A DNA stretch of 64,000 nt. Source: Leucobacter chromiireducens (GTDB lineage Bacteria; Actinomycetota; Actinomycetes; Actinomycetales; Microbacteriaceae). Both the position numbers and the translations under genes were made by a program. How positions within the stretch are numbered: the stretch's first letter is position 1; every line of letters begins with the position of its first letter. The notes under the pieces are model-generated. The model was not told where the DNA came from and did not search any database. It saw only the letters and a list, made by a program, of their open reading frames with translations. Of the stretch, positions 1 to 3,970 are shown piece after piece. The DNA is taken from contig NZ_RPDI01000007.1 of NCBI RefSeq assembly GCF_003917135.1, forward strand, positions 1 through 64,000. Reading direction: 5' to 3'.

Positions 1-70
1 TACACCACTTTACGGGGCACCACTCTGAGCGCGGGAGATGCTCGCAGGGAAGGTCTGGGCTCTGGTTGTT

Positions 71-261
71 CATGCTTACTCCTGACAGGAGTAAGCATGC
101 TCCGTTGCTCCCGCGGGAACAACGGCTCCTGGTCCCCATATGGAATAGCCGGCACGTGGCTTCCTCAGCGGATCGCGGAGTGGGCCTTCCCGCTTATTCC
201 CGACAGGAATAAGCGGGTGGAGATGCGCATGCCCCGTTATTCCTGCCAGGAATAACGGGGC
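71..261. repeat. Cluster of near-perfect palindromes with a shared core
   Basis: Three palindromes share the core TTAYTCCYGMCAGGARTAA. The first spans 71-99 (13-bp arms, 3-bp centre), the second 189-217 (12-bp arms, 5-bp centre) and the third 231-261 (15-bp arms, 1-bp centre). A fourth unrelated palindrome at 102-125 has the core TCCCGCGGGA. The arms differ between copies but change together, so pairing is kept. None is followed by a T-run, so simple terminators are unlikely. They could be REP-like elements, ends of a small mobile element, or regulator sites. No gene lies between them. Confidence 0.75.
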
Positions 262-556
262 ATCGGGGCTGCAACTGCGCAGGCTTCTGCATCTAGAAGC
301 ATGAACGAAAACTATGAGTCAATCCAGTTTCCACCGTCGTGCGTTGTTTGTGGCTCCACCATTTGCGCTCTTCGGTCTGAGCAAGCCGAAATGCTTGATC
401 CTGGAACCTTCGTGTTCTGGTGTCTTGAAACTGGTGGGTATCCCGCATCTATCCCGCACATTCCCGGAAGACTAAAACAAGCTCCGGTCATTGGAAAGCA
501 AATCTGATCTGCATAAAGCGAAGAACCTGGCATCCCGCACAATCTCTCGATATGGT

Positions 557-604
557 GTACTTCTAAATCGAAAGGTCACCGGATCGATGCCGGTCGGAGC
601 CACG
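557..604 (+). other. 3' half of a tRNA-Arg(UCU)-like gene, possible attachment-site remnant
   Basis: From the anticodon loop (CTTCTAA, anticodon TCT) to the discriminator base, the sequence follows a tRNA. It has a short variable region, a T-arm with stem ACCGG/CCGGT around a 7-base loop ATCGATG (A instead of T at the first loop position), and an acceptor 3' strand CGGAGCC followed by A. No matching D-arm or 5' acceptor strand lies at the proper distance upstream, so it is not a whole gene. Site-specific integration into a tRNA 3' end leaves just such a displaced half at the far end of the element. Whether that happened here is inference. Confidence 0.5.
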
Positions 605-626
605 AAGGAGTATTACGCCTTCACCG

Positions 627-662
627 AACCCCCATGAGGCTTCTACTCGTGGGGGTTCTTTT
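627..662 (+). terminator. Rho-independent terminator behind the tRNA-like fragment
   Basis: A stem of AACCCCC and GGGGGTT, extended by GAG/CTC, encloses a short loop and is followed by CTTTT. Its position just after the tRNA 3' half fits a retained tRNA terminator. Confidence 0.8.
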
Positions 663-1035
663 GTATCCCTCGCTGAACGAGCCCAGAGCGGCAGGGGCAA
701 CGGCCCACTTCTGCCGAAATGGCGTAGGGCGCCCTCGTCGTGTTCGGCAGTGTCGGGAGCGAGCTGCCGGGATGCCACTCCATGAGGAGCGGACTTGCGC
801 AACGTCTCTCCTCAAGTCCGGTGAGTGTTGCACTGCGGATCCTCATCTCTTCGAAAGTGCAACTTCCGGGGGGCTGGTCCCCGTCCAGGGAAAAGCCCCG
901 CCGATGTAGTGGGGAGCAACGGGCATTTGTTCTCTAGCCGCTCGGCGGTGAGTCTCCGCTGCGCTCTCCAGCGAGGGACTTGTCGGTATCAGAGGCCCTC
1001 CGCTGTAAGCTCCTCCACTTTGCTATGGTTCGTGA
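663..1035. other. Intergenic stretch without recognisable genes
   Basis: Only short open frames with no ribosome binding site and no recognisable protein are seen here. I see no RNA gene, and no repeat beyond short GC-rich hairpins. Confidence 0.5.
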
Positions 1036-1617
1036 GTGAGTTTCGATGACGACGTCCGCCTGCTGAAGCTCTTCGCGATGCCGAAGCCAGTGAGGATCAC
1101 CGCCCGAGCGTCAAGTATCACCAATTCGTTCGTGAACGGTGTGATTCCCGTGATCGCGCCGACGGCGTCGGAGATCCGAGATGCGCTTGAGGTCTTGGGC
1201 ATGGTGGCCGAGGTGTCGTGCTCGTATTGCGGCGGCACGAGCACTGAGTGGGATCATCTCCGGCCCCTCGTGGTCAACCAACGTCCGACCGGGTTCATCT
1301 CAGAGATTCAGAATCTGGTGCCGGCCTGTGGCAAATGCAATCAGAGCAAGGGGAATAAACCCTGGAAGGCCTGGATGCTGAGTGCCGCGCCGCTCTCCCC
1401 GAAGACCCGTGGTATCGCAGACCTCGCGCAGCGGGCGCTTCGGCTTGAGGACTACGAGCGCTGGCGGGAACCCACCTGCGTGGATTTCGAGTCGCTCGTG
1501 ACTCCCCAGCTCTGGCAGCTGCATTGGCAGCACCACGCGACGGTGCTCGGTGCGATGCAGGAGGCTGAATCGGTTGCGGCGCGCATTCGTGCGGAGATCA
1601 CGGCAGCGGCGCGGTGA
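1036..1617 (+). CDS. HNH endonuclease family protein
   Basis: The protein has 193 residues. The middle carries a CxxC pair (CSYCGG), then WDHLRP, then an asparagine and a second CxxC pair (CGKCNQSKGN). This is the order of a zinc-stabilised HNH/McrA-type nuclease, in which the His of DH is the general base. The C-terminal third is helical and charged. The GTG at 1036 directly follows an in-frame TGA. An ATG at 1078 (residue 15) is an alternative start, and neither has a strong Shine-Dalgarno. No methylase or other restriction partner stands beside it, so a role in restriction or in a mobile element is only a guess. Confidence 0.8.
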   Translation: MSFDDDVRLLKLFAMPKPVRITARASSITNSFVNGVIPVIAPTASEIRDALEVLGMVAEVSCSYCGGTSTEWDHLRPLVVNQRPTGFISEIQNLVPACGKCNQSKGNKPWKAWMLSAAPLSPKTRGIADLAQRALRLEDYERWREPTCVDFESLVTPQLWQLHWQHHATVLGAMQEAESVAARIRAEITAAAR

Positions 1618-1629
1618 TTCCACGCAGTA

Positions 1630-1857
1630 TCAGCGCTCGAGCGAACTTGCCGGCAGTGTGAGCGCCAGGTAGAGGACCGTACAGACCGCTGCGAACACGC
1701 CGCCGGTGCCAATGCCGCGCCGCGGTCGTCACGCCAGCGCTCCCACTGCGTCACTCGTGCGTCAATGGCGGTGAGCGCTCGCGCAAGACGATCCCAAGCT
1801 GCTGGATCACGGGTGACCAGATCGCGCCGCGCCTGCTGTCGTAGGGCGGTCGGCTTT
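1630..1857 (-). pseudogene. Remnant of a membrane-anchored protein, truncated and frameshifted
   Basis: On the minus strand an open frame begins after a TGA near 1857 and reads as a plausible amphipathic coil (segment QQARRDLVTRDPAAWDRL). A one-base shift near 1725 is then needed to continue into a hydrophobic segment (VCTVLYLALTLPAS) that ends at a stop at 1630-1632. No start codon precedes it in frame, so the 5' end is missing. The same frame upstream of the stop (to about 2075) may be an older part of the gene, but I cannot recognise it. Original function unknown. Confidence 0.4.
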
Positions 1858-2275
1858 CAACGAAAATCAACGTTCCAGTAGGCGGGCCACCAAGCATGAC
1901 GAAGAAATCTCGCCAACGCGTAGCCCTTTGGAAAGGCAACTCCGACTGTGGGACAAGTCACTATGTGTCTGCCATTCAACTGGCTGGTGCGGGAGCAGCA
2001 AACTACTCGGAACTTCCGGGAAAGCACCCGTTCGAGGCTCGTGCCTCGACATCTTGTGGCGGAATTGGGCGACATTGTGGTTGCGAACGGGTGTCTTCTG
2101 TCGTCATTGTCCAGTCAGTGAGCTCTCGTCCCTATTCAGAACTTCAGACTCTCTGTGCCGAACACCGGGGCCACCTCGGTTCGGAGCGTTCGTGAGGGAA
2201 TCGCGAGCCCTCTAACCTGGACGAAGCCCTCTTTGTTTGTTTGGAGGAAGAGGCTCTCGGAGAGGAAACCCACTG
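1858..2275. other. Gene-poor gap in the accessory region
   Basis: No convincing coding frame is seen. Open frames overlap in several phases without codon bias. This may be decayed coding DNA that belongs with the remnant at 1630-1857. Confidence 0.4.
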
Positions 2276-3067
2276 GTGCAGAGTAGCGATCTCGACCTTG
2301 ATTCCCCAGTGTTCGCTGAGCATCCTCAAGGTTGGCGAAGTCCAAATCAAGTGTTTGACGGGTTCCTCCTTTGTTGGGCGCTTGAGATGCAAGTGCGACG
2401 GCAGATCGCCCCTGAGAATCCTCTTCAGGATCTTGCAGAGAGACTGCCATCACGCTTCATGCACGATTCTCTCGGGGGGCTTGTCGGGGGCTTTCACGCG
2501 GCTGATGCAAGATGGTTCAGCGGGCAGGCAGTACCACGTCTCGTTGCTTTCGCGGCTGCGGCTCGAGTGTACGAGCGATTTGAGCCCCACTGGTCGCCAC
2601 TTCTCCACGATTGGGGGCGATACAGCTCAGCCCTAGCGGAAGCGACTGGCGGGGCAGACCGGCTATCTGTGTTCCAAGAGCTTCACGGGAATGTTGCGCG
2701 TGGCTTGCTCGCTGCTCGAGTGGAACGCGCCTACTCGGGCTCTCTAGAGCTGTCTAGCGCTGAGGAATGGTTTGCCAAAGGAGATGAAGAGCTTCTTCGT
2801 GCTACTGCAAGTGGTTCTGCACCATCGTTCCTAATTGGGGGAACACCCGTCCCTGTGCCGATTACGGCCGATGAGCTGAAATCGTCAGTTTGGAGTTGTG
2901 CGAGGGTACTGGTGAGGGCCGGAGACGTTGGGGAGATTCTCGAGCGATACTCGTCGCAACGAGGCCAAGTGGAGGACATTCTGGACCGAGGCTGCCAGCG
3001 TGCAGAAGGAATTGTTGAGCTAGGCCTCAATCCTCGCTTCCAGAACCTTTGGCCAGGCTGGTCGTAG
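2276..3067 (+). CDS. Hypothetical protein
   Basis: I do not recognise this protein of 263 residues. The GTG at 2276 is chosen because GAGAGGAAA lies about six bases upstream; an in-frame TTG at 2237 would add 13 residues. It looks soluble, with no signal peptide or membrane segment. It is Trp-rich in the middle (residues about 80-120) and has a helical, charged C-terminus. Codon use is less GC-biased than in genes to the right, which fits recent acquisition together with its HNH neighbour. The gene stands alone, so context gives no function. Confidence 0.55.
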   Translation: MQSSDLDLDSPVFAEHPQGWRSPNQVFDGFLLCWALEMQVRRQIAPENPLQDLAERLPSRFMHDSLGGLVGGFHAADARWFSGQAVPRLVAFAAAARVYERFEPHWSPLLHDWGRYSSALAEATGGADRLSVFQELHGNVARGLLAARVERAYSGSLELSSAEEWFAKGDEELLRATASGSAPSFLIGGTPVPVPITADELKSSVWSCARVLVRAGDVGEILERYSSQRGQVEDILDRGCQRAEGIVELGLNPRFQNLWPGWS

Positions 3068-3345
3068 TCCCTTCTTGGAGGACGCTCAGTATCTGGGTGG
3101 CGAGGCCCCTGCTGTCCGCTGTGAGTGTGAGGAGAGACTCAGTGTCGCCGGTCCCGGCACTCTGGGCTCGCGCCCGTCTCACTCACCATGGCGTTCAAGA
3201 AGTGCCCGACTGAAGTGCCGGACATTATCTGGATAGCGACAAGGAACGGTCCTGCTCTGGGCGCGACAGCGCTGCTGGTAGGAGGTCCGCGCGGTTGGTT
3301 GCTCGGTCGAGACCAGAGGCATCGGCGACGCATAGGTGATCTACA

Positions 3346-3555
3346 ATGTTCAGCATGACTCAGCACGAGACGCCGCAGCTCCCGTCCCCGAAGATCCTGC
3401 TCCCGCTGGGCATCGTCCTCATCGTCCTCGCGGTACTCGGGTTCATGTTTCTTGAGCTGCACGTCGTATCGGGCGCGTTCGCGGTACTCATCGGGCTCGC
3501 CGGTCTCGGCATGACGGTGCAGAGCATCATCCGGCTCCGGAAGGGCGAGCGCTGA
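3346..3555 (+). CDS. Small two-helix membrane protein
   Basis: This is a 69-residue protein with two hydrophobic helices (about residues 18-36 and 40-58) and a basic tail ending RLRKGER, which suggests both ends are cytoplasmic. AGGTGA lies six bases before the ATG at 3346; the ATG at 3355 is an alternative. It is followed after 58 bases by the DUF1801 gene on the same strand. Function unknown. Confidence 0.65.
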   Translation: MFSMTQHETPQLPSPKILLPLGIVLIVLAVLGFMFLELHVVSGAFAVLIGLAGLGMTVQSIIRLRKGER

Positions 3556-3613
3556 TCCCGGCGCGGCTGAGCGCTGCACACTACCCGCACCTCCCCGACG
3601 AAAGGCAGCCACC

Positions 3614-3970
3614 ATGGATGAACGCATTGCGCAGTTTCTCGCCGGGCTCGAGCAGGACGGCGACGAGCGGTTCCGCATCGTGACGGAGGTGCGCGAGATC
3701 TTTCGCACGCGCTTCGCAGACGCCGAGGAGACCTTCAAGTACGGCGGTCTGCACTACCTGATCGATGGCGCGGCCTTCGCGGGGATCTTCGCGTACACGC
3801 GGCACGTGAGCGTGGAGATCAACGGCGCAGCGCACCTCGACGACCCGCACGGACATCTCGCCGGCGTCGGCGGGAAGTCCGGCCGCAAGCACGTGCGGCT
3901 CGACCGGGCGAGCGACGTCGCCGACAAGCGGGTGGGCGAGTACCTCGCGCGCGCGTGGGAGCTGTTCTGA
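3614..3970 (+). CDS. DUF1801 domain protein
   Basis: The 118-residue protein matches the small DUF1801/YdhG-like fold as I know it. It has an N-terminal helix, then EETFKYGGLHYL and a strand pair with FAYTRHVSVEING, ending in a helix that contains the conserved basic RKHVRLDR segment. The family is soluble and lacks a firmly known role; some members are linked to iron-sulfur or DNA-binding functions. The ATG at 3614 is preceded by AAAGG. The end of the gene lies 8 bases before the best AraC start, so the two are probably cotranscribed. Confidence 0.7.
   Translation: MDERIAQFLAGLEQDGDERFRIVTEVREIFRTRFADAEETFKYGGLHYLIDGAAFAGIFAYTRHVSVEINGAAHLDDPHGHLAGVGGKSGRKHVRLDRASDVADKRVGEYLARAWELF

Follow-up and report, generated by a model that had tools for sequence, protein, structure and literature searches.

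A displaced tRNA-Phe(GAA) 3′ end in Leucobacter chromiireducens as the probable attachment site of a phage satellite-like element

We analysed the 64,000-base window that opens contig C67 in a Leucobacter chromiireducens assembly of 93 contigs (genome G000). Near the contig end, at positions 565-662, lies a tRNA 3′ part with its terminator that is almost certainly the right attachment site (attR) of a satellite-like element inserted into tRNA-Phe(GAA). One end of an island divided among three contigs in the assembly is thereby fixed, and a well-defined attachment-site architecture is gained with it. This is ordinary tRNA-targeted integration by a satellite-like element, which is new only as a member of its kind; the one feature worth follow-up is its tape measure cargo.

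Homology to tRNA-Phe starts within the anticodon loop, on its 3′ side, at position 565. Positions 565-603 hold the displaced 3′ part, which forms the attR core and is identical to the intact gene. It is followed on the same (+) strand by a trailer at 604-625 and a rho-independent terminator at 626-662, with arms at 626-638 and 646-658 and then a T-run. The 13 nt arms are 92% complementary around a loop of 7 nt, and folding of 622-665 gave -26 kcal/mol (z -5.8). A tRNA 3′ part with a strong terminator and without the 5′ part of a tRNA had been reported here in a preliminary description of the window, and this we confirmed. ARAGORN called no tRNA in the 64 kb window and a Rfam search of the window yielded nothing at the gathering threshold. 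When the genome was searched with window 480-700, positions 565-662 matched an intact tRNA-Phe and its terminator at C15:45444-45542 (91% over ~98 bp, E 1.6e-32), and the next-best match had an E value of 0.6. As nothing else in the genome matches strongly apart from the intact tRNA-Phe(GAA) on contig C15, a chance resemblance is excluded.

The same description had named tRNA-Arg(UCU) as the source of the fragment. This was mistaken, as both the genome match and ARAGORN on L002 identify tRNA-Phe(GAA). The letters TTCTAA at 561-566 do look like an anticodon loop, which is what speaks for a displaced 3′ half of tRNA-Arg(UCU). However, the junction reads TTCTAAATCGAAAGG both in the window and in the sister element of the Leucobacter relative G012; the intact tRNA has GACTGAAAATCGAAAGG. 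Since the sister junction also reads TTCTAAATCGAAAGG, positions 557-564, including the UCU letters, are element DNA, and of the tRNA span first drawn from the anticodon loop only the part from 565 on stands. Moreover, the genome-wide search showed no strong match to the 3′ half beyond these two loci, and therefore the tRNA-Arg(UCU) gene is not the source. We rejected this origin, the probability of which we consider negligible.

Contig C15 carries the other end of the element. ARAGORN on L002 identified a run of intact tRNA-Glu, tRNA-Asp and tRNA-Phe(GAA). Downstream of tRNA-Phe are its own terminator and then a convergent tyrosine integrase (Pfam PF00589, 2.1e-17; PHROG integrase, 2.2e-54), and the contig ends 9.8 kb further, inside a tape measure ORF. 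The expectation of an element to the left of the fragment, with the whole tRNA beyond the window, is thus borne out by the tRNA-Phe on C15. An intact tRNA-Arg(UCU) with an integrase next to it had been suggested as the thing to look for; an intact tRNA and an adjacent integrase are indeed present, and the tRNA is that for Phe. The locus therefore combines an intact tRNA sharing the 3′ end, an adjoining integrase and a displaced fragment at the far end, as expected of a tRNA-integrated island. Islander-type tRNA islands, as outlined in the available text of PMC4383910, likewise have a tyrosine integrase by the restored tRNA and a displaced fragment at the far end. Unlike in that outline, the duplicated stretch here (~98 bp) continues past the tRNA through the whole terminator, and its two copies diverge beyond the tRNA. 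A second short copy of the tRNA-Phe anticodon-arm sequence, GCAAAATCGAAAGG, was observed between the attL terminator and the integrase, at L009 ~9600 in G000 and L063 ~1840 in G012; it was not seen in the stretch of G015 examined.

A collinear sister element of ~15.3 kb, counted from tRNA-Phe to the displaced copy, is found in G012. Its integrase is 95.5% identical to that of G000 and lies beside the G012 tRNA-Phe, and a second tRNA-Phe 3′ core lies ~15.3 kb downstream of the intact gene. Window 31-664 is 82.5% identical to the right end of the G012 element (L063 16491-17125), and the similarity extends no further than position 664, where the terminator ends. We take positions 25-564 to be the right-hand end of the G000 element; they had no match in 16 kb of the element-free relative G011. 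A second copy of tRNA-Phe decayed to a pseudogene, without any element, would also provide a tRNA part with a terminator, and partial copies are present in at least nine relatives too. Yet the core is identical, an integrase is present, arm sites are found at both ends and the region is collinear with an element in G012, and we regard a pseudogene as highly improbable.

Returning to the attR of an integrated element, three putative integrase arm-type sites precede the core on the + strand: CCCGCAT at 442-448, CCCGCAC at 453-459, 11 bp from the first, and CCCGCAC at 534-540, exactly 81 bp past the second. The geometry of a CCCGCAY pair 11 bp apart with a third site 81 bp on is common to the attR arms of all three elements in which attR was read (G000, G012 and G015). 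Apart from the pair at 442/453, the 64 kb window contains no pair of this kind, nor did 30 mononucleotide shuffles of it produce one. On the integrase side, a CCCGCA pair, again 11 bp apart, lies beside the integrase 3′ end in 6/6 family members, and tRNA-Phe adjoins each of the six integrases examined (G000, G012, G015, G031, G063 and one from Microbacterium at 54% identity). The first integrase-side site is CCCGCAA, not CCCGCAY, in G015 and Microbacterium; the G031 integrase is partial and that of G063 has an internal stop. We infer that the CCCGCA sites are integrase arm-binding sites. Across the genus, the integrase was found in 5/54 genomes at E 1e-60 or better, G000 included, and a search of IMG/VR viral contigs returned no relative. 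The tyrosine integrases of Gordonia phage Easley and Arthrobacter phage Galaxy are homologous to it across 98% of its length, but at only 34-35% identity, and those phages are 38-47 kb in size.

In G000 the element is split over three contigs, and the assembly lacks the inner parts of two IS copies. Window positions 1-24 are the end of the IS copy at the C50/C67 contig break; these 24 bases also stand at the start of contig C89 and, in reverse, at the end of C31. The last 12 bases of C15 are part of an IS end, the one with which C67 opens, and C50 has the opposite IS end at both its start and its end. The bases flanking the C15/C50 break match each other (TGGTCAGC), as do those on both sides of the C50/C67 break (CTGAGCGC (G)), and each IS target duplication is 8-9 bp, as one extra base fits at each break. 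These sequences fit two IS copies in opposite orientation and the order C15 / IS / C50 / IS / C67 (the window). Moreover, C50 (6,226 bases) aligns with the middle and the right-hand part of the G012 sister element. The pieces of the element, without the IS interiors, sum to ~16.6 kb. Neither PF00872 nor PF01610, with which we searched this genome for IS transposases, had a match.

Beyond 664, where the similarity to the sister element ends, the window continues into the chromosomal right flank. Positions 664-3612 had no significant match in the stretches of G011 and G012 compared, and therefore we treat this part of the flank as species-variable. Window 1723-1831 has a weak match in G010 (72%, E 6.5e-8), ~0.2 kb beyond the displaced tRNA-Phe copy of that genome (copy E 2.3e-12). 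The variable flank between attR and the gene starting at 3614 also contains an HNH endonuclease ORF at 1036-1617, part of which (1071-1376) matches G009 at 70%. The flank is tied to tRNA-Phe by the ORF at 3614-3970 (+ strand), which we take to be DUF1801-like and which has relatives in both G011 and G012. In G011 the tRNA-Phe terminator is followed, after ~0.9 kb, by a 68% identical relative of this ORF, and a pattern search within 16 kb revealed no displaced tRNA-Phe copy. In G012 a 65% identical relative lies ~4.6 kb beyond attR. Comparison with relatives lacking the region had been proposed, and in such a comparison G011 is without the element and has its tRNA-Phe near the relative of ORF 3614-3970, but window 664-3612 is unshared. 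Since window 664-3612 is absent from the G011 stretch, there is no clean one-to-one empty site.

In the integration that we envisage, the tyrosine integrase would bind the CCCGCA arm sites at both ends of the element, and the circular element, through the copy of the tRNA-Phe 3′ end that it carries, would recombine with the 3′ part of tRNA-Phe in the chromosome. The restored tRNA gene (attL, on C15) would receive its 3′ end and terminator from the element, and the original 3′ end and a terminator would be pushed to the far side (attR, in the window). Had the crossover fallen inside the tRNA part, the chromosome's own terminator would be the one in the window. However, the window terminator differs from that on C15, and G011, which is without the element, has the C15 version. 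Since the G011 terminator corresponds to the C15 copy and not to the window copy, either terminator may be the original; gene conversion after integration, or recombination at a point past the terminator, is a possible source of the mismatch. The left flank is ~79% identical over ~1.5 kb both in G011 vs G000 and in G012 vs G000, which does not decide the matter. As a separate observation, the tRNA cluster and its spacers are 99% identical between G000 and G011 (L002 1221-1600, C15:45164-45553) and the adjoining left flank 79%, a disparity hinting at recombination or strong constraint.

Besides the integrase, a repressor-like protein and the tape measure, the G000 element encodes an excisionase-like protein (phrog_66, 4.1e-8; Pfam AlpA below cut-off), a primase-like DUF3987 protein (phrog_28894, 1.6e-69) and a terminase small subunit (TerS; phrog_1496, 1.3e-13). 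Compared with G000, in G012 an AAA ATPase replaces the primase and a scaffold-like protein (phrog_233, 4e-8) replaces TerS. From the two elements, 69/88 ORFs of at least 100 aa were scanned; the other 19 comprised both integrases and both long tape measure frames, together with ORFs that overlap them. None of the 69 gave a match to a capsid, portal or large terminase protein at E 1e-4, and several of the matches obtained were to PHROG families without a described function. In the more distant G015 element there is a large-terminase match (8.9e-50) together with an HNH match. Two likely toxin-antitoxin pairs were also observed, at L085 3773-4790 and L009 16990-18047: a GNAT protein with a TacA-like antitoxin (GNAT below the Pfam cut-off) and a DUF433 protein with a PIN-like protein (PIN below cut-off).

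By its gene content, the element looks like a phage satellite. It is small, with an integrase, a regulator and a replication gene, and it carries a gene for packaging or capsid redirection (TerS in G000, the scaffold-like protein in G012). The scan of 69/88 ORFs recovered no complete virion gene set in either element, and the capsid, portal and terminase large subunit expected of a complete prophage were lacking among the ORFs scanned. Satellites of the PICI kind, and the Streptomyces satellites MulchRoom and MiniFlayer (PMC10690885), are similarly small elements with an integrase, a regulator, a replication gene and one packaging or scaffold-like gene. MulchRoom and MiniFlayer, however, carry capsid, portal and large terminase genes, for which the element here has no matches among the ORFs scanned; as a further difference, the tape measure gene is the only tail gene that our scans recognised in it. 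A satellite of this type would depend on a helper phage. The portal family PF04860 has no match in this genome, and hence no helper prophage was seen by PF04860 alone.

The attR reading could be right and the element nonetheless a decayed ordinary prophage. In favour of this, genes for a tape measure and for a terminase small subunit are both present, the G000 tape measure ORF is now interrupted by an IS, and G015 has the large-terminase match; furthermore, a relative of the tape measure in G032 has portal and major head genes beside it, a prophage-like setting. Against decay, the G012 tape measure ORF is uninterrupted and yet there is no capsid, portal or large terminase among the 69 ORFs, both elements are only ~15-17 kb, and crude dN/dS of the tape measure between G000 and G012 is 0.04 over 500 codons. 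By this crude ratio the tape measure was under strong purifying constraint. We therefore think a decayed prophage unlikely, if a serious alternative, and favour a satellite-like element. In G002 another relative of the tape measure has an AAA gene and an excisionase-like gene nearby, and the 7 ORFs scanned at this locus include no head gene.

In our scans of the G000 and G012 elements of this Leucobacter tRNA-Phe family, the constrained tape measure is the only recognised tail gene, beside TerS or a scaffold-like protein. We tentatively suggest, with considerable doubt, that the family are satellites that may use it to redirect the tail assembly of a helper. If so, the element's tape measure would set tail length, or would escape defences that sense the tape measure, and tail redirection would parallel the redirection of capsid size. 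With such a solitary, constrained tape measure gene, tail redirection by satellites would become testable. In a partial literature search we found no satellite-borne tape measure, and we do not claim its absence from the literature. In the available portions of the papers, the tape measure belongs to the helper AH14a (PMC4936722), is the target of the defence protein Tab (PMC10884400) or occurs only in a cited title (PMC11364771).

The tRNA-Phe(GAA) gene is a repeated insertion site in Leucobacter. A second, partial match starting near the tRNA-Phe anticodon was found in at least 9 of the 36 same-genus relatives searched (G001, G003, G010, G012, G015, G016, G025, G030 and G036), and its sequence was read in six (G001, G012, G015, G025, G030 and G036). 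The count covers partial tRNA-Phe matches, and the integrases considered at those sites are of this family only. A displaced fragment at the other end of an element is also present in G012 and G015. In G003, G010 and G016, Rfam identified three intact tRNAs in each stretch.

Lastly, near-perfect palindromes with the core TTAYTCCYGNCAGGARTAA and outer arms that are variable yet self-complementary were observed near the right end of the element (window 71-263; L085 6123-6153; L063 16294-16678). The window array consists of palindromes at 71-99 (core TTAYTCCYGNCAGGARTAA), 102-125 (a different core), 189-217 and 229-263. A pattern search for TTAYTCCYGNCAGGARTAA-core palindromes found none in the stretches of G015, G002, G031, G032 and G011, and recovered three in the window, one in C50 and six in G012. 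The array is possibly a replication or packaging site.
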